From the NCBI RefSeq assembly GCF_028657945.1, contig NZ_CP059693.1:2728001-2792000 (forward strand): a DNA stretch of 64,000 nucleotides, read 5' to 3'. The stretch's first letter is position 1, and each line of letters begins with the position of its first letter. This document shows positions 13,387 through 44,271 of the stretch, in pieces. A model generated the notes under the pieces. That model was not told the origin of the DNA and made no database searches. It saw nothing but the letters and a program-made list of their open reading frames with translations. Position numbers and translations under genes: made by a program. The DNA is from Thalassomonas haliotis (lineage in GTDB: Bacteria; Pseudomonadota; Gammaproteobacteria; Enterobacterales; Alteromonadaceae).

Positions 13387-15468
13387 ATGCACAGTCTTTA
13401 TGGCGTAGCACAGGCTAAATCAAGGGAGAGAACAGCAGGGCGCTCTGCCTGGTCTTTTTCTTTGCCGTATGGCAAGGAAAATGCCAGGATCCGCGAGCTC
13501 CTTCAGGCAGCCGACAGCCAGGCACAGTCGCAGCATGTTTCTTTGCAGCAAACAAGGCAACAAACAGGACGGCAAACCCGGCAGCAAAAGGCATCGCCGG
13601 GCAAGGCCGGTTCTTTGCCTGTTGCCGGCATTATTCAGCGCGATACCGGGGAGACCGCTGCCGTCATGGCACAGGGTAGCCGGGCGGGTTCGGGATTGCA
13701 GTTTTTCCCGGTAAATGTCACCGACACGCAAGTTGGCCCGGTATCCGTTGCCGGCGGCAGGCGCCATAGAAGAGCGAGCCGCTTAAATGTGATCATTGCC
13801 GCCAATATGACCCCCAGGCTGCTTGCCCGGGCATTATTGCCTTTGTGGACCGGCGCTACGCCTTTTACCCCGCCCGGGGCAACATCACCTTTACCCCTGG
13901 AAACTGTTGATGAAGAAACCCTGGCAAAAGCCCTGTTGGTGTATAACCGCAGTTATTTATCGCTACCGGATATGCCCCACTGGCAAGTCGGTTTACGCTT
14001 ACCTTTGCCGGTGCAAATCGATGAAACAACCGCCGTGGCAACAGTAAACCCGGGAGTTATCAGGTCCATTGCCGCGATGTTCCCCCAGGATATGGCGGTG
14101 TTGCTTGATAGCCATACCGCGAGCAATACCGTGCCCTCAGCCGCGATGTTGACAGCCGAAGTGGACGCCTTTTTAAGCCGATATTCAAGCGCGCAGCGAC
14201 GGGGCAGCAATCTTAGCGGCCGGGCCGAGAGAAATGTTCAGGCATTAAGGCCTTTTATTGAAGCTGTGTTTACCCGGGTTAATGCCGCTGACGGTTTTGC
14301 CCTGGCACTTGCCTTTATGACAGACCAGGTCAACCGGACTATTTCCCTGATCGGCAGCCAGCAAGACGGCGCTGCTATTCTTGGCCTGATACAAACCCGG
14401 CTAAATTCAGCTCCCGGGGATATTACTCCGGAGCAGCAAGGCCTGCTGGAGCGGGCAAACCGTATGCTGGCTCTGGTCAGCGGGGTTACAGCGGTTGCAC
14501 CGCCGGCTGAGCGGCGGCAGCGTCACAGGCGGCGCAGACTGGAAATGCGCCGCTCAAGAGTTGGACGTCCGTGTGCCTGCCTGGTGTTTATTCATAACGA
14601 TGAACGCAATGCCCGCCAGGCAGTACAAGATCTGCATTGGGCCTGCCGTTATAATCTTGCCATTATCGACCGGGGTACATTACGCAGCCGGGAGATCAAT
14701 GTCCCCGGGCAAGGCGCTACAGATCCCAATGAACTGTTTCCCGAATCGGTCCAGACAGAATGTACCGGCAATGAAGCCGCCTGCCGGCTGTATGAAGCGA
14801 GCCATAATAACCGCCGGGCAATGCAAATCCAGTTTTTCCTGACCATGAAAGCATGCTCAAAAAACTTCTCTTTGCCGACCATAGCCCTGCATAATAACCG
14901 CAGCAGTGAGACCGGTGCTTTTCGCGGCGCAGGGTTAACAGATCAGCAAAATGCTTCACTAAGGGGCGGGGTTGAGCGGGAAACGGCAAGCGGTAGCGGC
15001 AGTCGTGATGACTTGCGCAGCCGGTTACAGGCGGTCAGCCCTGGTGTCAGGGGCCGCAGGAGACCGGATTTTAGCCGGTTATTAAATTTAGGAGGCACCA
15101 CCAATATTTTTCGCTGGTGCAATATGCCGGAAATTGTCAGTTGTCATGTCGGCGATCCCGCCCACCCGGATTTTGTGATCTGGACCACCAACCGTGTCGA
15201 TTTCACCGCCTTTAGCGGACAAAACTTTAATGTGGTATTACAAGACAGGGCGGCGGGGGAGTCTGCTACCGACTTATCTACCCTATATGTGCGTCTTGGC
15301 AGCAATCACCGCTACATTAATATCGAAACCCCGCATAGCCGGCCAACCCGGTTGGACACACAAGCCGTACGCCGTGAAAATATGAATGCGATCACCGGGG
15401 CGCTGCGGGCACGTAACCTGCTTTGCTGTGATCCGGCCTTGCTTGGCTCGGTGGCGGATATGCCTTAA
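13387..15468 (+). CDS. eCIS-payload-like protein with putative M14-type metallohydrolase region
   Basis: This 693-residue protein has an N-terminal Gln/Arg-rich low-complexity stretch (about residues 48-65). A conserved module follows (about 105-385), containing NVIIAANMTPRLLARALLP, LAKALLVYNRSYL and VGLRLPLPVQIDE. From memory this module recurs in large proteins carrying the eCIS core (DUF4157) domain in myxobacteria, cyanobacteria and marine proteobacteria. The DUF4157 HExxH itself is absent. The C-terminal part has an HNDE pattern (His403, Glu406), a DPN at 446-448 and ALHNN with His502. That order resembles the HxxE...H zinc site of M14 carboxypeptidases and related amidohydrolases. It has several Cys residues and no signal peptide. 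AGGAGGG precedes the ATG closely. The eCIS link is family memory; the enzymatic call is inference. Confidence 0.6.
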   Translation: MHSLYGVAQAKSRERTAGRSAWSFSLPYGKENARIRELLQAADSQAQSQHVSLQQTRQQTGRQTRQQKASPGKAGSLPVAGIIQRDTGETAAVMAQGSRAGSGLQFFPVNVTDTQVGPVSVAGGRRHRRASRLNVIIAANMTPRLLARALLPLWTGATPFTPPGATSPLPLETVDEETLAKALLVYNRSYLSLPDMPHWQVGLRLPLPVQIDETTAVATVNPGVIRSIAAMFPQDMAVLLDSHTASNTVPSAAMLTAEVDAFLSRYSSAQRRGSNLSGRAERNVQALRPFIEAVFTRVNAADGFALALAFMTDQVNRTISLIGSQQDGAAILGLIQTRLNSAPGDITPEQQGLLERANRMLALVSGVTAVAPPAERRQRHRRRRLEMRRSRVGRPCACLVFIHNDERNARQAVQDLHWACRYNLAIIDRGTLRSREINVPGQGATDPNELFPESVQTECTGNEAACRLYEASHNNRRAMQIQFFLTMKACSKNFSLPTIALHNNRSSETGAFRGAGLTDQQNASLRGGVERETASGSGSRDDLRSRLQAVSPGVRGRRRPDFSRLLNLGGTTNIFRWCNMPEIVSCHVGDPAHPDFVIWTTNRVDFTAFSGQNFNVVLQDRAAGESATDLSTLYVRLGSNHRYINIETPHSRPTRLDTQAVRRENMNAITGALRARNLLCCDPALLGSVADMP

Positions 15469-33208: not shown

Positions 33209-36200
33209 TTAATTAATCTCGCGCCAGTAAAGAATACGGTCATTGCCTCGGTATTGGCCGAAGCTGGCCAGGCCCTTGGGGTTATTATCATGATTGGTGT
33301 CGCTGTCCCAGTCGTATTTTAACCAGGAGGGGGTGACATCATTGGTGCCGCCGTAGATATAATAGGTATTACCGACATTTTCTGCGCCGGGGGCGGCAAG
33401 TATCAAGGGGGAGAGGCTGTTGCTGCCGTTAAGGAAAGTCCCTGTGCCGGTAGTGGCGTTTATGTCCGGATTTGCGGCCAGCGCCGGGTTAAGGCCTGTG
33501 GTGTCAAAGGCATAGTTATTAACGGTTTCCCCGTTATAGGGGGTGCAGCTGTCATCGAGATTGGTGATAAAACCGCTGCCGTCCCAGTATTGCACCGACA
33601 TCACTATCGGCAGGTCTTCGGTTTCCGGGCCAAAATTATTTTCCACATACCAGCGGCCAAAGCGGATGTTTGCACTGCCGCTTAGTTGTTTGGCGCTGCA
33701 ATCGGTGGCCGGATCTGTCTCTGTGGTGCAGGCATTATCGGTATCCGGGCGCATATCCAGGCCGGTCAGTAAAGAGACCTGTGTTGGCGTTTCGCCGTCA
33801 TCCAGGCCTATGCCCACTACCAGGTCTTCAAACGGACCATCCGGAGCCGCTGCGCCGCGGCTAAAATTACCTTTGCTGTTGTCAAGGGCATAAACCCCTT
33901 CAAGCCAGTTACTGGAAAAGCCCGAAAGCCTTGATGCCAACTCGTTGCCGTCATTATTATTTTCCGCCACCAGGGTGATACCGGCTTTGGCGTAATCCTG
34001 GGCGCTGTCGACGTGGTCAAAGTAGTTTTTGGTAACTTCTCCCCCCTGGTTCAACGCCTGAAGTTGATAGCTGATTTTCAGCTCTTCCTGGTCCATATAA
34101 ACGAAATTCTCGGGATCGCCTGCGCCGCACCAGCCTGAAACCTGGGAGCTGAATAAGGTAAAATGATCCGGGACAAAACGGCCGATATCTATGGCACCGG
34201 CCGCTATTGTCAGGCTGCCGTCGCCATAAGCGCTGTCCTGTATATCCAGGTTAAGCAAACCGACATCGGAATATTTGGCGCCGCTGTAGCTGGAGTTACC
34301 GGCAGTAAAACTGGTTAAGGTGACATCGACAAAGGCGGGAGTCAGCGAGCTTGGCAGGCTGTTACTGGCGGCATAGGTGAAATTGCCTTCGTTGCTGCCC
34401 GAGGTGGGGCCGGTTCTTTCTAGCTTTAACTGAATTTGCCCGGGCGCATAGTTAAGCGTTGTGTCGCCGTCGGCATTGATTGCGGTGACGTTAAAGTCAA
34501 AATCGGCGCCTGCTTTATGGCTCGGGTTCGCGTCAACGGTGGCGGCATCGAGCTTTGTGCCATCGGCTTGTACACTTAATTTCAGGGCATCGGGTCTGAC
34601 CCAGAAACTGTTGCTGCTGCCGGTAATATCGGTACCGCCGTTGTTATAACTGGCCTGCAGGCGTATTTGTCCGGCATCTTTATAGTTAGGCTTGGGGATA
34701 ATGGCCTTAGCTTCGGCATCAAACACCAGCTCTACTGAGGTAAAACTGGGGTATTTAGCCAGGCTGCTGGCATCGCTATCTACAGTAAATAACAAGCCGC
34801 CGGTGCCTGTCGGGGCAATATTTTCCTGGGCCAAGTCTATGGTGACGGTTTTACTGACAAAGGTGTCGTCGCTGATACAGGAAAATCCGGCACCGGCACG
34901 TTTAGACTTAGTCGCGGTTAACACTATATCGGTAAATTCTACCCCCGCCACCTGGTTCGTTATCGTGGAAAATGAAAAGTCGGCATCGCTAAAAGTGATT
35001 TCACAATTGGCATACGAGCACTCTGGATCATCGGTGGCGCCGGGACTGATATTATCCAGGGACAGGGAAATAGTTTCTGCGGTGGAATAAGTAAAATCAA
35101 AGGTGCTGGTGCCCTGGAAGCTGAGGGCATCGGCAATTTTTGTGCTGCCCGCGTAGACATCCATAGTCACATTTTGTGTGCTTAATACCGAACAGTCGGC
35201 AACTTCACAGGCATTAATGGTGATCTCTTCGTCGGCGCAGGTTAATCCCTGGTTATTATGGATTATTTGATAATGATGAATATCTGTAACAGCTTCACAG
35301 AGTCCGTTAAGGGTTAAACCGGCAATGCCCTCATAGTTGGCGCTTGCCGAGTTTTTAATTTCAAGTTTGCCCTTTGCCGAAATAACCCCGGTATGCCTGG
35401 CGTTATTGTGAATATGAATATCCTGGCCCGCTCCGTAAAGCACCGCCTTTACCTGTACTTCATTTTTTAAGTGGATTTGCTCATAACCGATAAATGCCAG
35501 GTTTCGGGCAACACCGCCGACATTTACCAGGCTGTTGTTTTCAATGTCAAAGTGTTGGTTGACATAAATAACGACCGGGCCATTGATGATGACCTGGCTG
35601 GAATTGAATATTTCGAGAAAGTCGAACCAATAAGTGCCGGCATTAAGGGTGATGATGGAATTATTGTGAAAATAACCTGTGGTAATTTTATAGTCGGTTG
35701 GCGAGGATAAAAAAGTTACATTGGCATTGCCGGTTAAGCTGAGCTGATCAATTTCCGTCAGGTTGTAATCGCCCCCTGGGCCTATGGTGGAGGTGCCTGC
35801 GGATAAAGCGATATCGGTTGTCGTTGAAGTGGTTTCAAATACCGGCAGGGTTAAGGCCGCCGCGGTTGTGCTGGTAATGGCGCAATCTGCGCTCGCACAG
35901 GTATTGTGGCTGGGATCGGTTTCATCGGTTAGCGACGGAAATGCGAACAGGTTAGCGGCATCGCCCACGACTTGGCCGTTATTTTTAAATTTTAATGAAC
36001 TGTTGGCATCATGTCCCTGTACCGTGTTGGGGAAATAGGCCGAGCACACATTGCTGCAACCGGTTGAAGAAAAACTGATATCGCAACTGGTGCCGCCACC
36101 GCTATCACATTCGGGGGCATTTGTTGCCGTGACCGTTGGATTTGCCACCGATAAGCTCAGGGTTTCTGCCGTGGTATGGTCGAAAGTAAAGCTGGTGCTG

Positions 36201-36985
36201 CCGGTAAAGCTTGGTGTTGTTTTTGTAATGCCGCCGGCCTGGAACTCTAAGGTAATGGCATCTGTGCTTAAACTTGAGCAGGCTCCATCCAGGCAGGCTT
36301 TTACGGTAACCGTTTCAGCCACACAGACCGAACCGCTGCCGTCGTGGACAATTTCATAATGATGTACCGAGGGGGCGCTTTGATCGCAAAAATCCTGGGA
36401 GTCGAGATTATTCAAATCGGAAGGTGTATAAGTAAAGGTGCTGTTTTCTTTGAGAATAACATCTTTTTTAGCGGCTATGCCGCCGTCGATTTCTGAGTCT
36501 TTTTCTATGGTGAGCTCATTGCCTTTGACATAAATAAAGGCGTTGATCCTGGCATTTTCTTCTATTTTTAATTTTCCTTTAAAGACCAGCAAGACATTGG
36601 CGGGATCTCCCCCCTGGTTGATTTTTACGCCTTTTTTAAGCACGACATCGTTATCTTTAAAATAGAGCACGGCGGTGCCGTTGCCGGCGCCGGTATAGGT
36701 CACGGTTTTATTGTCGCCCAGGCCCCAGCCGTTATAGTCTGTGACCCCGTCGGAAATGGTACTGGCATTGAAATCACCGCCGTTACTGATGCTTTTTAAG
36801 GTTACCTCGGTAAAGCCGGCGGCGCTGCAGCTGGTGCCGTTACAGGTGACACCGCTTTCTGTGCTCAGGCTGCCTTTGACGGCAAAGCTTTGCGGCCCGG
36901 GAAAGACGTCGGTGCAGTCGGTGGCCTGGCTAAAAAACACAGGAAATAAACAAAGAATTAAAAAGAGAAACAGGCGAATTGACAT
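33209..36985 (-). CDS. MshQ-like surface protein with DUF6701, larger paralogue
   Basis: A 1258-residue exported protein: signal peptide to about residue 21 (FFSQA), then Cys-rich and Asn/Ser-rich beta-helical repeats. Polymer-forming-like stretches (ILVFKGKLKIEENARINAF and FIGYEQIHLKNEVQVKAV) recall DUF7305. Two copies of a roughly 100-residue Cys-containing module start at HHYEIVHDGSGS and HHYQIIHNNQGL (about residues 208 and 585). The C-terminal half is DUF6701, closing with ASFGQYRGNDRILYWREIN. MshQ is a component of MSHA pilus loci in Vibrio and Shewanella, but no pilin or assembly gene is present here. It is probably cotranscribed with the paralogue upstream, across a 223-base gap with a small hairpin. 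Confidence 0.85.
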   Translation of the reverse strand: MSIRLFLFLILCLFPVFFSQATDCTDVFPGPQSFAVKGSLSTESGVTCNGTSCSAAGFTEVTLKSISNGGDFNASTISDGVTDYNGWGLGDNKTVTYTGAGNGTAVLYFKDNDVVLKKGVKINQGGDPANVLLVFKGKLKIEENARINAFIYVKGNELTIEKDSEIDGGIAAKKDVILKENSTFTYTPSDLNNLDSQDFCDQSAPSVHHYEIVHDGSGSVCVAETVTVKACLDGACSSLSTDAITLEFQAGGITKTTPSFTGSTSFTFDHTTAETLSLSVANPTVTATNAPECDSGGGTSCDISFSSTGCSNVCSAYFPNTVQGHDANSSLKFKNNGQVVGDAANLFAFPSLTDETDPSHNTCASADCAITSTTAAALTLPVFETTSTTTDIALSAGTSTIGPGGDYNLTEIDQLSLTGNANVTFLSSPTDYKITTGYFHNNSIITLNAGTYWFDFLEIFNSSQVIINGPVVIYVNQHFDIENNSLVNVGGVARNLAFIGYEQIHLKNEVQVKAVLYGAGQDIHIHNNARHTGVISAKGKLEIKNSASANYEGIAGLTLNGLCEAVTDIHHYQIIHNNQGLTCADEEITINACEVADCSVLSTQNVTMDVYAGSTKIADALSFQGTSTFDFTYSTAETISLSLDNISPGATDDPECSYANCEITFSDADFSFSTITNQVAGVEFTDIVLTATKSKRAGAGFSCISDDTFVSKTVTIDLAQENIAPTGTGGLLFTVDSDASSLAKYPSFTSVELVFDAEAKAIIPKPNYKDAGQIRLQASYNNGGTDITGSSNSFWVRPDALKLSVQADGTKLDAATVDANPSHKAGADFDFNVTAINADGDTTLNYAPGQIQLKLERTGPTSGSNEGNFTYAASNSLPSSLTPAFVDVTLTSFTAGNSSYSGAKYSDVGLLNLDIQDSAYGDGSLTIAAGAIDIGRFVPDHFTLFSSQVSGWCGAGDPENFVYMDQEELKISYQLQALNQGGEVTKNYFDHVDSAQDYAKAGITLVAENNNDGNELASRLSGFSSNWLEGVYALDNSKGNFSRGAAAPDGPFEDLVVGIGLDDGETPTQVSLLTGLDMRPDTDNACTTETDPATDCSAKQLSGSANIRFGRWYVENNFGPETEDLPIVMSVQYWDGSGFITNLDDSCTPYNGETVNNYAFDTTGLNPALAANPDINATTGTGTFLNGSNSLSPLILAAPGAENVGNTYYIYGGTNDVTPSWLKYDWDSDTNHDNNPKGLASFGQYRGNDRILYWREIN

Positions 36986-37100
36986 TCTTTCCTTCCTTGC
37001 AGCTTAACGGCTAATGCTAATATCGGTATTGTTAAATGCGTTTAGGTTTTTGCTTATCTGCTTACTTGAGTATGGTGGCAAATGAGGGGAAGACCAATAA

Positions 37101-37129
37101 ATCTTGATATTTCCATCGTTTATCAAGAT
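37101..37129. repeat. Hairpin between the two MshQ-like genes
   Basis: ATCTTGATA (37101-37109) and TATCAAGAT (37121-37129) form a 9-bp stem with an 11-base loop. No T run follows on the transcribed (minus) strand, so a terminator is unlikely; it may be an attenuator, an operator or nothing. Confidence 0.35.
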
Positions 37130-37208
37130 ATTTGCTTAGGAAAAGCTAAATTAACCACAGGAGGAAGTTACCGGGAAAATACCGGTAACTTGAATCGTTA
37201 GGCTCCTG

Positions 37209-40181
37209 CTAGTCCACTTCGCGCCAGTAGATAATCCGGTTATTGCCGTGATACTGGCCGAAACTGGCCAGGCCTTTGGGGTTATCGTCATAGGGGCCGT
37301 CTAAATTACCGTCTTCGTTGTCCCAGTCATATTTTAACCAGGCCGGGGTGATATTATTGCTGCCGCCGTAGATATAGTAGGTGTGGCCGACATTACCGGC
37401 GCCGGGGGCGTTTAACATCAGCGGCAAAAGACTGTTGCTGCCGTTAACAAAAGTACCTATGCCTGTGGTGACGCTTATGGTGGGAGCATCGCTCAGGGCG
37501 GGGTTAAGATTGCTGTTGTCAAAGGCATAGTTATTGATGGTTTCGCCGTTGTAACTGGTACAGCTGTCGTCAAGGTTGGTGATAAAGCGGCTGCCGCTCC
37601 AGTATTGCAGCGACATTATCATGGGCAAGCTGACGGTTTCCGGGCCAAAGTTGTTTTCGATATACCAGCGGCCATAAAGTATTTTCGCACTGCCCGAAAG
37701 TTGAATGGCATTGCAGTCGCTCAGGGCATCTTCATCTTGGGTGCAGAGGCCGGCTGCGGTTGCCAGCATATCAAAAGGTTCGTCCAGCACAGGGCCGTCG
37801 TCATCTTGCAGGGTTAAGCCAAACTGCAGCCGTTCAAAAGGCCCGTCGACAAGAGTGCCTTTTCTTGGAAAGGCTGCCCTGGTGTTGGCGGGTTGATAGC
37901 TGCCCTCAGCCCAGGTGCCGATAAAAGCGCTGATCCTGTCGGGGTAGGTTGCACCGTCACCGTTGTTATTATTTTCTGCCACTAAAGCGACACTGGCTTT
38001 GGCATAGTCCTGCTCGGGGGCAACATGGTCGAAGTAGTTTTTGGTGACCCCTTCCGCTTTATTCCGCGCTTCGAGCACATAGTTTACCTGCAGCTGCTCC
38101 TGGCCCATATAGGTAAAGTTGTTGACGCCATTGCCGCACCAGCCGACAACTTCAGCGGGGTTTTCAACCAGGGTGAAATGATCCGGGATAAAGCGGCCAA
38201 TATCGATGGCGCTGCCGGACACAGTCATAGCGCTGTTGGCATAGTTGCTGTCTCGTACATCCAGGTTAATAAGGCCTACTTCGCTATAACTGGCGTTTTT
38301 ATAGGTGGAACTGCCGTTGTCAAAGGAGGTTAAACTTATATCCTTAAAGTCGGCGGTGAGGGCAGATGTCAGCTGTTTGTCCTCGCCATAGGTTAATGTA
38401 CCTTCGTGGCCGCCGCTGGTGGGGCCGGTTCTGGTGAGTTTTAGCTGTATTTGTCCGGGAGTATAGTTAAAGGTAGCATCGCCTGAGGCATTGAGGGCAG
38501 TGACTTTTAGCTCAAAGTCTTCACCGGCTTTATGGCTAGGGCTGCCGGAGACTGTAGTGGCATTTAAATCTGTGCTGTTAACCCGGGCGCTAAGAGCCAG
38601 TGCCTCCGGGCGGACCCAGAAACGGTTGCTGATGCCTGTGATGTCGCCGCCGGATGCGGTGTCAAAGCCGGCGCGTAACTGTATTTCTCCCGCATCCAGG
38701 TAAGTGGGGTTGCTGATAGTGGCGTAGCTGTTGACAAATCCCAGCGATACCGCCCTGGTGCCGGGATATTTGGGCAAGGTCGTGTTGTCATCAATGATCA
38801 AAAAATTCCGCCCGGTAGCGCCCGAGGGAGTGACATTTTCCTGCGACAGCGCTATGTCAACTCTGGTGTCGGCAAAACTGATATTGGGGTCGCAGCTAAC
38901 GCCGCCGCTGCCGTCGTCCCCGGCCTGCACCGCTTGTATGCTGATATCCGGGAAGGACTGACCCGCTATCTGGTTGTCGATGGCGGAAAAAATAAAACCG
39001 GCATCATCGAAAGTTATTTTACAGTCGGCGGTTGAGCACAGCAGATCATTAGCGCCATTGGGGATGGTATTGTCCAGCGATAAGGTCAGGGTACCCGGTG
39101 TTTTATGTTGCAGGTTAAAGGTGGTACTGCCTAAAAAGCTGATGGAGTCGCCGAGTTTGCTATCATCCACGAGAAAGTCCAGGGTGATGTTTTGTGTGCT
39201 TAAGGTGCTGCAATCGTCGACCTCACAGGCCCTGATGGTAATTTCTTCCGCTTTACAGGTTAATGCCCGATCGTTATGGATTATTTCATAGTGATGTACC
39301 GCCGTGGCGGCCGGGGTTATGGTGGCGGTGCCAATGTGATTGATGATGTTGGCATTGCCGGAGTTCTCGATAAATAAGGAGAAATTCCGGGTGATATTAT
39401 CTCCTAAGCTTTGGGTGGCTATGGTGACTGCGGTTTCGCTCGTTCCCGCTAAAATTGTCGCGCTGGTATTGGTGTCGGTATAATAGCTGCGCTCTTCATC
39501 CGTATTGTCGAAGGTATAATAGTCAAAGCTGACATCACTGGCGCTGCTTGCTGACATGCTAATGGTGAAGGTGGCGCTTTCTCCCTGCATCACAGTGACA
39601 TTATTGATGCTGATGTCGGGGTCGCTACTGTCACTGCCTTCGTTGACATCACCTCGGGTATCTCCTCCCGAGTTACCGTTACCGGCAATTGCCCAGTCGC
39701 CGGTAGCGTCAGGTTTCCTGATATAATCATGGCTGTTGGTGTCGTCGATAGACCAATCAAAATCCGGAGTACAATCGCCATCCTGCAATGAGGTACTGCC
39801 TACACTTAAATAATCTATGGTGTTGTCGCTAGCGTCTTGCAGCAGAATATCAAAAGGTTTGTTATTGGGAATGACACTGGTATCCAGTATCAGGTACACA
39901 TTGTTATTTAGTGTGGCGGTACTCAGGGATAAATCCTGGTAACAGGTGAATTCACTTTTGTTTTTATTTTTTTGCACACAGATATCAAGCTTCCAGTTAC
40001 GGTAGGTACTGCGGGTGATCGCGGCATTCAGTAATTTCACCTCAACAAAGCCCACCATACCGGCTTCATTGATGCTTGCCTGGCCTTTATAGCTGGAGCA
40101 GTCGGCAGAGGCAAACTGGCTGTAGCCGGCAGACAGTAAACATAATAATGCATTACCTGTGCGGGTAAATATTTTGTTCAT
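37209..40181 (-). CDS. MshQ-like surface protein with DUF6701, smaller paralogue
   Basis: A 990-residue exported protein: signal peptide to about residue 26 (QFASA), then a jelly-roll-like N-terminal domain (about 30-150) with VDAxx strand patterns. A Calx-beta-like repeat follows (about 185-290, SINNVTVMQGESATFTISM). One copy of the HHYEIIHNDRALTCKAEEI module comes next (about 293-400), and a DUF6701 C-terminal half ends NNRIIYWREVD. The last 400 residues are close to those of the downstream paralogue, so the pair came from a duplication with divergent N-terminal halves. A surface or pilus-tip role is inferred from the MshQ family. Confidence 0.85.
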   Translation of the reverse strand: MNKIFTRTGNALLCLLSAGYSQFASADCSSYKGQASINEAGMVGFVEVKLLNAAITRSTYRNWKLDICVQKNKNKSEFTCYQDLSLSTATLNNNVYLILDTSVIPNNKPFDILLQDASDNTIDYLSVGSTSLQDGDCTPDFDWSIDDTNSHDYIRKPDATGDWAIAGNGNSGGDTRGDVNEGSDSSDPDISINNVTVMQGESATFTISMSASSASDVSFDYYTFDNTDEERSYYTDTNTSATILAGTSETAVTIATQSLGDNITRNFSLFIENSGNANIINHIGTATITPAATAVHHYEIIHNDRALTCKAEEITIRACEVDDCSTLSTQNITLDFLVDDSKLGDSISFLGSTTFNLQHKTPGTLTLSLDNTIPNGANDLLCSTADCKITFDDAGFIFSAIDNQIAGQSFPDISIQAVQAGDDGSGGVSCDPNISFADTRVDIALSQENVTPSGATGRNFLIIDDNTTLPKYPGTRAVSLGFVNSYATISNPTYLDAGEIQLRAGFDTASGGDITGISNRFWVRPEALALSARVNSTDLNATTVSGSPSHKAGEDFELKVTALNASGDATFNYTPGQIQLKLTRTGPTSGGHEGTLTYGEDKQLTSALTADFKDISLTSFDNGSSTYKNASYSEVGLINLDVRDSNYANSAMTVSGSAIDIGRFIPDHFTLVENPAEVVGWCGNGVNNFTYMGQEQLQVNYVLEARNKAEGVTKNYFDHVAPEQDYAKASVALVAENNNNGDGATYPDRISAFIGTWAEGSYQPANTRAAFPRKGTLVDGPFERLQFGLTLQDDDGPVLDEPFDMLATAAGLCTQDEDALSDCNAIQLSGSAKILYGRWYIENNFGPETVSLPMIMSLQYWSGSRFITNLDDSCTSYNGETINNYAFDNSNLNPALSDAPTISVTTGIGTFVNGSNSLLPLMLNAPGAGNVGHTYYIYGGSNNITPAWLKYDWDNEDGNLDGPYDDNPKGLASFGQYHGNNRIIYWREVD

Positions 40182-40995: not shown

Positions 40996-43900
40996 ATGAC
41001 TAGACTCATTAGAGCCATTTTCGCATCAATAATGCTAACGACAACATCGTTAGCAACCGCGGTACCGATAACATTCGATACCCTTTCTGATCTTGAAACT
41101 GTGACGACCCAGTTTGCCGGATTGACTTTTTCCGGAGCAAAGGTTTTGACCGCAGGCATCTCATTGAACGAGTTTGAGTTTCCGCCGGTCTCCGGAGACA
41201 ATGTTGTCTTCGACGAATTTGGCTCGATTGAGGTCTTGTTCGATACGCCGGTAGCCAGTGTCTCGGGTTTGTTTACTTATAGCGCAGCCCTGAGTGCGGC
41301 AGCGTTTGACTTGAGTAATTCGTTGCTCGATAGCGTTAGCTCCAGTTTTTTCAATAATCTTGCGCTCAGCGGTGAGGCAGGCTCTTCGCCTAATGAACTG
41401 TTGTCGCTAAACTCAGCCTTGGGCATTTCCCGGGTGGTTTTTGAAGGCGACCCCTTAGGCGGCTCTTTCACCCTGGACCAGTTTGACTTTAGCCCCCTGG
41501 ATACGTCTGTGCCTGAGCCGTCGATATTGCTCCTGATGCTGTTTGCCTTGTTCGTCTTATTTGTGATGCGTGCTAAGCCGGTCAAGTATCACAAAGTAAA
41601 GCTAATGCTGGCATTTGGCGTTGCTGTGGTAACCGCATCTCCGTCTTACGCCGTGCAGCGGGTCGAGTCCGTTGTTGCCACCCCGGCGCTGGTATTTGTT
41701 GATACCCCAACCTCGGTCAGGTTTTCCGCCAGGGTAGCGCCGGACGATAACCTGATCCCGGCAAGCGTGCGTTTGTTGCAGGAGCAGGAAGACGGCAGGC
41801 TTGCGGTTGCAGCAACAATGTTTGATGACGGCAGCAATGGTGACAGCATCGCGGGGGATCTGGTTTTTACCACTGAACTTGCCGTGCTGGTGGCAAGTCC
41901 GAGTGTCCTGAAATACCGTGTTGCTGTGGCCTACCGGGGCACAATGCGGCGGACCCAGTCCGAGACGGTTTTGGTGCGCACCGATCTCGAACCTTTCTTC
42001 AGCCCGACCCCTGATGACAAGCTGGTTAGCAGTGAAGGGGTTGAGTTTGCCGTTGATGAAGTACTGGTATCCCTTATCGACGGCGAGGACATCACAACGG
42101 CACAAAGCCTGGCCGCAAGCCAGGCGGGCGCAGTGGTAGGTTTTGCACCGACGGCTAATCTGTATCAGCTCAGGGTGCCAAGCGCGAGCATAGCAGCACT
42201 TGATCTGATTATTGATGCTTTGCTTATAGATCCCAGGGTGGTGATGGCGATACGTAACTACACCACAGACTCGGTACTTGAGCCTGATGCTGCAAATAAC
42301 GATGCACAAGCCTTACCGGCAATAAATAACAGTGCTTATGAGCAAATTAAGGCCTTTGATGCCTGGGATCTTTTATTTGATATCGGCCATAGCTTTTCGC
42401 CTGTGGTCGTCGGGGTGCTCGATCGGGGATTTCAGCGACATGACGAATTCAGCGGTGTCGCCTTTACCCCGGGTTCAACCCGCAGCGATGTCGGCTGGGC
42501 AGCCCGGGCCGGCTGTAGCACCGGCAGTAAAGATCACGGCACGGCTGTTGCCGGGTTGATAGGTGCCGGTAATAAAGGGGGCAGCGGAGGTGATTTTCAA
42601 ACCAACGGTGTGCTCGGGGGGGTAACCGATGCTTCGGCTGACGGCTCAAGTGTGCCCTATAAACTTGATACCCGGCGACTGGGCTCTACTTTCATAGAAA
42701 ACCAGACCCTGATCTCACGTATGGTAAACGCCGGTGCTAAAGTCATTAATATGAGCTTTGGCGGTTCGCGTAAAAGCGCATTGCCGGTGGATACAGTGAT
42801 CGTTTTTTTTAATCCGGGAGCCCCTGCGGGCACGGCGGCAGCCCTGGCGACCTTAGTGGGCGGGACTGTGCTTCGTGAAGGCAGTACGCGGGTCAAGTTA
42901 AAGGTGAATGCAGCTACTGAGGCACAAACACAAGTACATATAGCTACGCTACAAGCCCAGGCAACGGTTGCCAGCGCAAAATCGGAGCGGCAATGTTTTG
43001 GCGTGCAGAATGTAGACTTTAACGCAATAACCAACTTCTATCGGGCTCGCTTTAATGCACATCCGGATGTGATGTTTGTTGTGGCTGCCGGAAATAGCTC
43101 ACTGGCAGTATCCGATGCTTTTCCTGCAAACATTAATGCCGACAATGTTTTGACCGTGGGGGCCTCGAATGAACTGGCCGACCCCGACACCGCAGGTGCG
43201 GCAAAATTTACCAATACCGGGGCTGGTGTTGATATTGCCGCGCCCGGGGTATCTGTGTATGCACCGACGGATTTTACTGCGCCGCTTGATGCTGCAGATT
43301 ACCGGCGGGTGGACGGCACTTCATTTTCCGCCCCTATCACGGCGGGAGCATTAGGACTTATGTTAGCAACCGATGGTGCGCTGGAAGTAGAGCAGTTGAG
43401 AAAAATATTGCTGGCAACCGCAACTAAGAATGCAGCGGTAAATACCATCAGCGGCAAGATAGTGGACTTAGGGGCCGCTATTGAATTTTTGCTGGTGCCT
43501 GTCGATGTCTTTATGGTGGTGGATACGTCCGGCAGTTTCAGTGATGATCTGGCTTCTTTTCGTGCCGAGGCGATTTCTTTAGTGGATGAGTTGGATAACA
43601 GCGGGTTGAATATCCATATAGGCTTGGCTCAATTTGAAGATTATCCGATTGCGTCATGGGGAGGCAGCGCAGACAGGGCTTATAATCGGGTATTGGATAT
43701 ACAAAGTATTGAAGATGGCGGCGGAGGTAAGCCGATAATTAACAGTATCAATGGTTTGACGGTCCGCAGCGGCAGTGATATTCGTGAGAGCCAACTGGTG
43801 GCCTTGTTCCAGGGAGCTACGGGCTCAGGACAGACTGTGGCTGGGCATCCAGGCGCGAATATTCCAGCCGGCAAAGGAGCAACCTTTCGTAATCCGACGG

Positions 43901-44271
43901 TAACAGCCCTGAAACCTATCCGGATCATGATCCTTTGGACGGATGCTGATTTTCATGTCAAGAATGATTCAAACTCACTTGTTGAGCCTGTTATAGGCTA
44001 TCCTGGTCCTACTTTTGAGCAGACCATTGATGCCTTGAATAATAAAGGCATTAAAGTGATCGGTATCGGGGCGGGCAATAATGCGATTACCGATCTACGC
44101 AAGGTTGTAGAGGGCACAGATACCCTGGCGCCTGCAGAAGGGGTTAACTGCGACAGTGATGCTGCCATTGAAATACCGGCGGGACAGCCTATTGTCTGTC
44201 CGATTTCAACCAGCGGTAGCGGCATAGGGGAAGCGATATTTAACACAGTGATCGCCGTGGTGAAATCCTAG
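40996..44271 (+). CDS. Composite PEP-CTERM / subtilase (S8) / vWA protein
   Basis: One uninterrupted 1091-residue frame contains what looks like two secreted proteins. Residues 1-195 have a signal peptide (ending near TAV), a beta-rich domain and a PEP-CTERM-like signal: VPEPS (172-176), a hydrophobic helix and the basic run MRAKPVKYHK (191-200). Normally such a protein would end there. A second signal-like segment (VKLMLAFGVAVVTASPSYA) follows, then a subtilase domain with Asp476 (VLDRGF), His514 (DHGTAVAG) and Ser776 (GTSFSAP). A large insert lies between His and Ser. A vWA domain carries the MIDAS residues Asp843-x-Ser845-x-Ser847. Strong AAGGAGG precedes the ATG. An internal ATG at 41566 could start the second part alone. 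No exosortase gene is visible. Confidence 0.82.
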   Translation: MTRLIRAIFASIMLTTTSLATAVPITFDTLSDLETVTTQFAGLTFSGAKVLTAGISLNEFEFPPVSGDNVVFDEFGSIEVLFDTPVASVSGLFTYSAALSAAAFDLSNSLLDSVSSSFFNNLALSGEAGSSPNELLSLNSALGISRVVFEGDPLGGSFTLDQFDFSPLDTSVPEPSILLLMLFALFVLFVMRAKPVKYHKVKLMLAFGVAVVTASPSYAVQRVESVVATPALVFVDTPTSVRFSARVAPDDNLIPASVRLLQEQEDGRLAVAATMFDDGSNGDSIAGDLVFTTELAVLVASPSVLKYRVAVAYRGTMRRTQSETVLVRTDLEPFFSPTPDDKLVSSEGVEFAVDEVLVSLIDGEDITTAQSLAASQAGAVVGFAPTANLYQLRVPSASIAALDLIIDALLIDPRVVMAIRNYTTDSVLEPDAANNDAQALPAINNSAYEQIKAFDAWDLLFDIGHSFSPVVVGVLDRGFQRHDEFSGVAFTPGSTRSDVGWAARAGCSTGSKDHGTAVAGLIGAGNKGGSGGDFQTNGVLGGVTDASADGSSVPYKLDTRRLGSTFIENQTLISRMVNAGAKVINMSFGGSRKSALPVDTVIVFFNPGAPAGTAAALATLVGGTVLREGSTRVKLKVNAATEAQTQVHIATLQAQATVASAKSERQCFGVQNVDFNAITNFYRARFNAHPDVMFVVAAGNSSLAVSDAFPANINADNVLTVGASNELADPDTAGAAKFTNTGAGVDIAAPGVSVYAPTDFTAPLDAADYRRVDGTSFSAPITAGALGLMLATDGALEVEQLRKILLATATKNAAVNTISGKIVDLGAAIEFLLVPVDVFMVVDTSGSFSDDLASFRAEAISLVDELDNSGLNIHIGLAQFEDYPIASWGGSADRAYNRVLDIQSIEDGGGGKPIINSINGLTVRSGSDIRESQLVALFQGATGSGQTVAGHPGANIPAGKGATFRNPTVTALKPIRIMILWTDADFHVKNDSNSLVEPVIGYPGPTFEQTIDALNNKGIKVIGIGAGNNAITDLRKVVEGTDTLAPAEGVNCDSDAAIEIPAGQPIVCPISTSGSGIGEAIFNTVIAVVKS

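Follow-up and report, generated by a model that had tools for sequence, protein, structure and literature searches.

The window analysed here, a stretch of 64,000 nucleotides from Thalassomonas haliotis, covers positions 2,728,001-2,792,000 of a 6.45-Mb single-contig genome, and the gene considered, P0001, starts at contig position 2,741,387. An earlier, sequence-only reading had proposed that P0001 encodes a free-standing payload of an extracellular contractile injection system (eCIS), with a Gln-rich N-terminus as loading signal, a middle module of a kind found in DUF4157 (eCIS_core) proteins and an M14-type hydrolase at its C-terminus. Our analysis favours a similar view, namely that P0001 is rather likely to be an orphan eCIS cargo, probably of the second of two systems in this genome (2.15-2.17 Mb), with an M14-like zinc hydrolase at its C-terminus. 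The open reading frame (ORF) itself is a genuine gene. Orthologues were found in 4 of 196 genomes of the family, these being all four genomes of the genus examined, with 76-87% identity to the other three and with synteny kept; a named relative, Thalassomonas sp. RHCl1, is 87% identical over the best segment. The ratio of nonsynonymous to synonymous substitution rates (dN/dS) is 0.10-0.15 for the whole gene, 0.06-0.08 for residues 381-693 and 0.23-0.62 for residues 1-99; P0001 is under purifying selection and is not a chance ORF. The whole protein has no match in Pfam, PADLOC, PHROGs or PDB at E<=5 and a single NCBIfam match at chance level (E 1.1), and the empty Pfam result agrees with the earlier statement that DUF4157 is absent. 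The segments quoted in that reading (NVIIAANMTPRLLARALLP, LAKALLVYNRSYL and VGLRLPLPVQIDE) are all present in the protein, and the motifs HNDE (403-406), DPN (446-448) and ALHNN (with His502) lie where they were placed. It had also noted no injection-system structural gene in the window, and no eCIS structural family was detected in the 18 window proteins scanned with Pfam, a subset of the window ORFs.

One link to injection systems comes from a distant homologue. When a profile of the four orthologues was searched against 369 genomes of the class, the one match outside the genus was in another gammaproteobacterium (G540), over profile positions 385-631 with E 2.3e-48. This 646-aa protein carries eCIS_core at residues 118-194 (Pfam E 1.3e-32) with a P0001-type C-terminal domain behind it, and its gene shares an eCIS operon with genes for Baseplate_J, gp25 and Phage_base_V, an AAA ATPase and another eCIS_core protein; the proteins scanned there, from 20.0 of the contig's 27.4 kb, included neither a sheath nor a tube protein. 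The second eCIS_core protein of that operon (L015:17392-19191) has an OmpA-family domain. The whole G540 protein matches 87 plasmid records, and in the 30 matches listed the similarity falls within the first 197 residues, that is, in the DUF4157 part; homologues of the C-terminal domain were found in no plasmid, phage or viral contig, and no further significant one in 398 genomes of the phylum, 54 of the order of G540 and 120 of the order of G517. Three C-terminal matches of 23-30 residues (E 0.27-0.62) were dropped as chance, and an Acinetobacter plasmid match (E 7) was set aside after inspection. The T. haliotis genome has three eCIS_core matches and two eCIS loci with a sheath gene in each (eCIS-1 and eCIS-2, Table 1), so injection-system structural genes, which the sequence-only reading had suggested looking for, are present, and eCIS_core genes occur in all four genomes of the genus. 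One eCIS_core payload of eCIS-1 (L009:13552-18336, 1594 aa) shows a weak match to a DNA/RNA non-specific endonuclease near its C-terminus (E 5.7e-4, below cut-off). The notion of a free-standing payload thus gains support from the DUF4157-fused homologue and from the two loci and, more weakly, from the N-terminal signature described below.

P0001 and its G540 homologue also have their cysteines in common. P0001 has ten, all within residues 396-681 and hence in the C-terminal domain; the G540 domain has the same ten, eight as invariant alignment columns and a CC pair by local alignment, together with two extra. The orthologues in G061 and G013 have exactly ten, and the G095 ORF has three more, further upstream. 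At these columns the seven cellular relatives introduced below have other residues or gaps, with 0-6 cysteines elsewhere. The ten cysteines of the eCIS version probably form disulfides, in which case complete folding of the enzyme would have to wait until it has left the cytosol of the producer.

The C-terminal domain itself looks like an M14-like zinc hydrolase at superfamily level, on the strength of its motifs and of an unnamed cellular hydrolase family, which has the same motif order and which served as the starting point for a search for members. Searching 368 further class genomes with a loose typed consensus retrieved seven such proteins, from 7 of them (L103-L109). A hidden Markov model (HMM) of the seven, run against 9681 ORFs from the other fetched DNA and the window, ranked the four orthologues and G540 above everything else, with E between 1.2e-5 and 1.4e-4 (window protein, 8.1e-5), the next, unrelated ORF following at E 3, and hhalign with the cellular family gave a probability of 89.5 and E 2e-6. 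In the joint alignment of 11 sequences H403, E406, R435, D446, P447, N448, F451, A500, H502, N503, N504, T601, F606, N615 and N645 are invariant. E647 is the aligned residue in ten; in G540, the remaining sequence, the aligner was thrown off by an insertion, and the RFINIET...CCD tail pairs with RYINIET...CCD by local alignment only (score 42 vs 21.9 +- 3.7 for shuffles, matched by 1 of 1000 shuffles). Where the cellular family has Arg after DPN, the four orthologues and G540 all have Glu. For this reason the name of a classical M14 enzyme does not fit, and identity with the classical M14 carboxypeptidases was rejected on this replacement and on the lack of a Pfam M14 match: there is no PF00246 profile match, and Pfam is empty at E<=5 for P0001 and at E<=10 for the C-terminus. 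The M14-type end of the sequence-only reading therefore holds at superfamily level, through homology to the cellular family and the model of one of its members, and not as a classical M14 carboxypeptidase. Talin, dehydroquinase and ribosomal matches of the profiles and proteins were discarded as chance.

Table 1. Features of P0001, its upstream neighbour and the eCIS loci of the same genome (window positions, except contig positions for the two loci)
Feature	Position	Strand	Remarks
P0002, 128-aa gene, 99 bp upstream of P0001	12901..13287	+	kept with P0001 in all 4 genomes
P0001, payload-like gene	13387..15468	+	693 aa, ATG start, frame without internal stop
N-terminal tail (residues 1-99), Gln-rich and hydrophilic; putative loading signal	13387..13683	+	least conserved part; 46-72% identity among orthologues
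NARIRELL (32-39), signature first half	13480..13503	+	common to eCIS-2 proteins
IIQR (82-85), signature second half	13630..13641	+	common to eCIS-2 proteins
Middle module, residues 100-380	13684..14526	+	found in four orthologues only
Basic cluster RRHRRASR (125-132)	13759..13782	+	invariant in 4 orthologues
Basic cluster RRQRHRRRRLEMRRSR (376-391), middle module/hydrolase boundary	14512..14559	+	no change at 376-390 among the 4 orthologues
Putative M14-like zinc-hydrolase domain (392-693) with ten conserved cysteines	14560..15465	+	homologous to C-terminus of G540 eCIS_core protein and to cellular hydrolase family
HNDE 403-406 (HxxE), predicted zinc ligands H403 and E406	14593..14604	+	H and E invariant, 11/11 sequences
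R435, invariant Arg	14689..14691	+	11/11
DPNE 446-449	14722..14733	+	DPN 11/11; 7 cellular rows have DPNR, 4 eCIS-type rows DPNE
H502 in ALHNN, predicted third zinc ligand	14890..14892	+	11/11
E647 (RYINIET), putative catalytic Glu at the place of Glu270 in carboxypeptidase A	15325..15327	+	10/11 in joint alignment
eCIS locus 1 (eCIS-1)	about 3.41-3.44 Mb (3,408,381-3,438,336)		sheath, two eCIS_core genes
eCIS locus 2 (eCIS-2)	about 2.15-2.17 Mb (2,147,687-2,172,034)		sheath, gp19 tube, Pvc16_N, CIS_tube (below curated cut-off), Phage_base_V, eCIS_core

Structural comparison was made through the relative L104, whose model, built with an 11-sequence alignment, is confident (predicted local distance difference test score, pLDDT, 92.9; predicted template modelling score, pTM, 0.88). 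In this model H21xxE24 sits at the junction of a strand and a helix; H113 belongs to a strand, and E192, with which E647 of P0001 aligns, to the last strand (188-194). The six best Foldseek matches of the model in the PDB were four chains of 2odf, the putative metallopeptidase 2qvp and the poly-gamma-glutamate hydrolase 3a9l (E 0.009-0.027), followed by alpha/beta hydrolases and others. In a viral fold library the best match was a protein annotated as a Core-2/I-branching enzyme (E 0.0029) and the second a phage poly-gamma-glutamate hydrolase (E 0.042). The zinc-hydrolase likeness that the sequence-only reading had expected for residues 390-690 is seen in the relative, for which the top PDB hits, though weak, are zinc hydrolases or proteins like them, and not in a model of the domain itself; on this point the reading is not refuted. 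Excerpts of a structural study describe PghL as similar in structure to PghP, to 2odf and to an N-formylglutamate amidohydrolase, and less closely to carboxypeptidase A; they give its zinc ligands as His-Glu-His and discuss the zinc site, Arg145/Tyr248 and Glu270 of carboxypeptidase A (PMC6506827). These structural links, as far as the excerpts go, make "M14-like superfamily" a fair name.

In the N-terminal tail of the window protein, the proposed loading signal, the Kyte-Doolittle sum is -24.0 over the first 35 residues, residues 6-21 carry a charge of +3 and one F/W/Y occurs in the first 8 residues. Excerpts of PMC11297309 describe the signal as a hydrophilic, slightly positive and disordered N-terminus with an aromatic among the first 8 residues, and report, within the same excerpts, that no specific conserved sequence was detected in PVC and Afp cargo; according to excerpts of PMC11495950, loading signals are 50-70 aa long, disordered and groupable by sequence alignment. 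The Gln-rich N-terminus of the sequence-only reading is present in the window protein, but the orthologues have it in shortened or gapped form, G095 most of all, where the Kyte-Doolittle value, taken from a start upstream of the aligned start, is -1.5. Within the tail lies a two-part signature, an IREIL-like motif followed by IIQR, LIQR or VVQR, that is common to P0001, the eCIS_core protein of eCIS-2 and a 321-aa gene behind the latter. Among 1223 ORFs (at least 150 aa, distinct over their full sequence, from all fetched DNA and the window) nine carry it: the four P0001 orthologues, two eCIS_core proteins of the locus-2 type, two copies of the neighbouring 321-aa gene and one other (L085). 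Eight of the nine are thus payload-type genes of this genus, and in L096, another of its eCIS_core proteins, only the first half of the signature is present. The signature is no more than suggestive of a tie between P0001 and the second eCIS, because the pattern is post hoc and its eight carriers amount to three protein families. The 321-aa gene itself (L012:16069-17034, at about 2.171-2.172 Mb of the T. haliotis genome), which has no Pfam match and lies behind the eCIS-2 eCIS_core gene, is probably another payload.

The middle module has no match in the 196 family and 369 class genomes or in plasmids, phages and viral contigs, the sole plasmid hit being an unrelated HrcA (E 8), and among 8716 ORFs of 88 loci, which include 40 stretches around eCIS_core genes, the best match outside the genus has E 0.93. 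The earlier association of residues 100-390 with DUF4157 proteins consequently finds no support: no relation to such proteins was found within the Pseudomonadota samples and the plasmid, phage and viral collections searched, and on that scope the idea of a DUF4157-associated module was rejected. Two Arg-rich clusters, near-invariant in the four orthologues, bracket most of the module. The second, RRQRHRRRRLEMRRSR, has 10 K/R in 16 aa, which no other of 80 ORFs of at least 250 aa (in the window and seven stretches of the T. haliotis genome) reaches. Such clusters could be cleavage, localisation or lumen-binding segments.

Taken together, these observations would fit a protein whose tail (about residues 1-99) acts as a signal for loading into an eCIS and whose middle module, flanked on both sides by Arg-rich segments, serves as linker or cargo scaffold. 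After injection the C-terminal domain would fold, assisted by disulfides, in an oxidising compartment, where H403, E406 and H502 would hold zinc and E647 would be the catalytic glutamate of a zinc-dependent cleavage of an amide or peptide bond in the target. One relative, L109:1291-3069, is fused to Peptidase_S66 LD-carboxypeptidase domains (E 9e-22), and NCBIfam names it a muramoyltetrapeptide carboxypeptidase below the family cut-off; this fusion makes murein peptides a possible substrate of the family. Our best guess at the substrate of P0001 is peptidoglycan or a gamma-glutamyl peptide, given that fusion, the signal-peptide-like N-termini of some cellular relatives and the weak match to a gamma-glutamyl hydrolase. 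The sequences establish the gene, its set of catalytic motifs, the DUF4157-fused homologue in an eCIS operon, the two eCIS loci and the cysteines; from these, loading, injection, zinc binding, activity, substrate and disulfides are inferred. It can be speculated, as an unlikely extension, that P0001 represents a new effector family: an orphan cargo locked by ten eCIS-specific cysteines, unfolded or inactive in the reducing cytosol of the producer, active once oxidised in the target periplasm or another oxidising compartment and cutting peptidoglycan or a gamma-glutamyl amide there. Such a cysteine lock would account for the survival of the producer although no obvious immunity gene accompanies the cargo. 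Many tested eCIS toxins are described as having no associated immunity gene, which is deemed puzzling in the excerpts available of PMC8213781.

Several findings weigh against the reading of P0001 as an injected enzyme. P0001 lies about 0.57 Mb from eCIS-2 and 0.66 Mb from eCIS-1, beside neither, and neither it nor its neighbours carry DUF4157. The middle module has no homologue that we could find outside the genus, the N-terminal pattern was written after the sequences had been seen, and 20 DUF4157-like ORFs picked by motif, those of eCIS-1 included, lack even its first half. Alternatively, P0001 might not be injected at all; it could reside in the cytosol or at the cell surface, owe its C-terminus to recombination with a hydrolase domain that eCIS payloads also use, and serve an unrelated function. 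The position outside any eCIS locus, the lack of DUF4157 and the genus-restricted module speak for this, but the signature is common to two eCIS-2-locus proteins of the genus, and the only close homologue of the C-terminal domain found outside it is an eCIS_core protein in an eCIS operon with the same ten cysteines; we regard a non-injected protein as doubtful. That homologue is, on the other hand, a single one across overlapping samples of 196, 369, 398, 54 and 120 genomes.

The enzymatic part of the reading has its own difficulties. An AlphaFold2 model of the domain itself, from 5 sequences, is not confident (pLDDT 34.7), so the fold is taken from L104, which is 22% identical to the P0001 domain; the Foldseek matches of L104 are weak, with none reaching E<=0.001 and the best at E 0.009 and TM 0.46, and classical M14 carboxypeptidases are missing from the 50 matches listed. 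Significance in the comparison with the cellular family comes mainly from profile positions 181-235 (i-Evalue 0.0005-0.0024 in the orthologues), and the hhalign alignment spans 58 columns of the same stretch. The half from HxxE to HNN scores low by itself (best 8.1 bits, i-Evalue 0.87, in G540), its assignment following from motif order, and in the window protein the HMM match to this half was not found beyond HNN. If the domain belonged to the superfamily but had lost catalysis or were no enzyme, for instance a binding domain, this would account for the change of the DxNR Arg to Glu in the four orthologues and G540 and for the insertions that the domain has relative to the cellular family, yet the domain retains the two His and the Glu predicted to bind zinc as well as the catalytic Glu, and dN/dS over residues 381-693 is low, so that this appears quite improbable. 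As to the target, the peptidoglycan guess draws on one fusion (L109) and on signal-peptide-like N-termini read by eye, and the cargo could instead be a zinc hydrolase acting within eukaryotic cells, on a host protein C-terminus or side-chain glutamates for example, with the Arg-rich segments as nuclear localisation or cleavage sites. The near-invariance of the two clusters and the density of basic residues in the second would suit such a role, and four eCISs are known to mediate interactions with invertebrate hosts, according to excerpts of PMC8213781. The ten conserved cysteines and their inferred disulfides, however, suit an oxidising compartment better than the cytosol, and one member of the cellular family is joined to a murein LD-carboxypeptidase; a eukaryotic target therefore seems rather unlikely to us. 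An orphan eCIS cargo with a hydrolase that may act on the bacterial wall is the reading we prefer.

Around P0001 nothing else points to an injection system: the neighbours scanned with Pfam are DSBA-like, sulfotransferase, DUF1244, CsiV and Mfd proteins, none of eCIS type. In G095 a DSBA-like gene, 78% identical to that of the window, stands directly before P0002, whereas in the window the sulfotransferase gene lies between, so that P0002 and P0001 stay together while a neighbour differs. P0002 is a candidate adaptor or immunity gene; it has no Pfam match and no homologue in the fetched stretches (best other ORF E 0.35). Its identification as a metallohydrolase was rejected, as TIGR04338 matches weakly (E 0.0032), with 17.3 bits where the cut-off is 90, and P0002 has no HExxH. 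Elsewhere in the window two adjoining large proteins of 1258 and 990 aa, each with a DUF6701 C-terminal region, are encoded at 33209-40181 on the minus strand, and a 1091-aa Peptidase_S8 subtilase with a VWA-like stretch at 40996-44271 on the plus strand.

Our literature searches found no description of a P0001-type effector, which does not prove that none exists, and no paper on Thalassomonas and contractile injection systems. eCIS cargo has mostly been looked for through position at the 3' end of an injection operon and through DUF4157, the criteria given in excerpts of PMC8213781. If the present interpretation is true, a conserved cargo encoded 0.57 Mb away and lacking DUF4157 would mean that payload repertoires are undercounted. 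The short N-terminal signature offers a testable route to further cargo, and the ten subfamily-specific cysteines suggest a simple means of self-protection that can be tested by redox conditions.

Among known systems, P0001 resembles the eCIS-associated toxins and payloads in being modular, with a hydrophilic N-terminus and an enzyme-like C-terminal domain, and in that a homologue of this domain is borne by an eCIS_core protein in an eCIS operon; it differs from them in having no DUF4157, in lying about 0.57 Mb from the nearer eCIS and in its non-eCIS neighbours. The cellular family L103-L109 has the motif residues of P0001 as well as NVVLQ-like and YINVE motifs in common with it but consists of proteins of about 230-270 aa (L109 being a fusion of about 590) with DPNR rather than DPNE. 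The classical M14 motif order is HxxE ... DxN ... H ... E, and carboxypeptidase A is matched by P0001 in this order and differs from it at the place of Arg145, where P0001 has Glu; we take the Arg of DxNR in M14 enzymes to be the equivalent of this carboxylate-binding residue. Atu2144 (2odf), which is presumably N-formylglutamate amidohydrolase-like, is the best Foldseek match of the L104 model (E 0.009, probability 0.92), at a TM of 0.46 and 9% identity. In excerpts of PMC6506827 the same structure is termed a hypothetical protein and listed beside an N-formylglutamate amidohydrolase. PghP/PghL (3a9l), matched by the L104 model with E 0.027, were not found by sequence searches of the PDB; the His-Glu-His zinc site and catalytic Glu described for these enzymes in the excerpts (PMC6506827) parallel the site predicted for P0001, whereas the TM is 0.34 and the HxxE spacing of P0001 differs from that of His40/Glu45.

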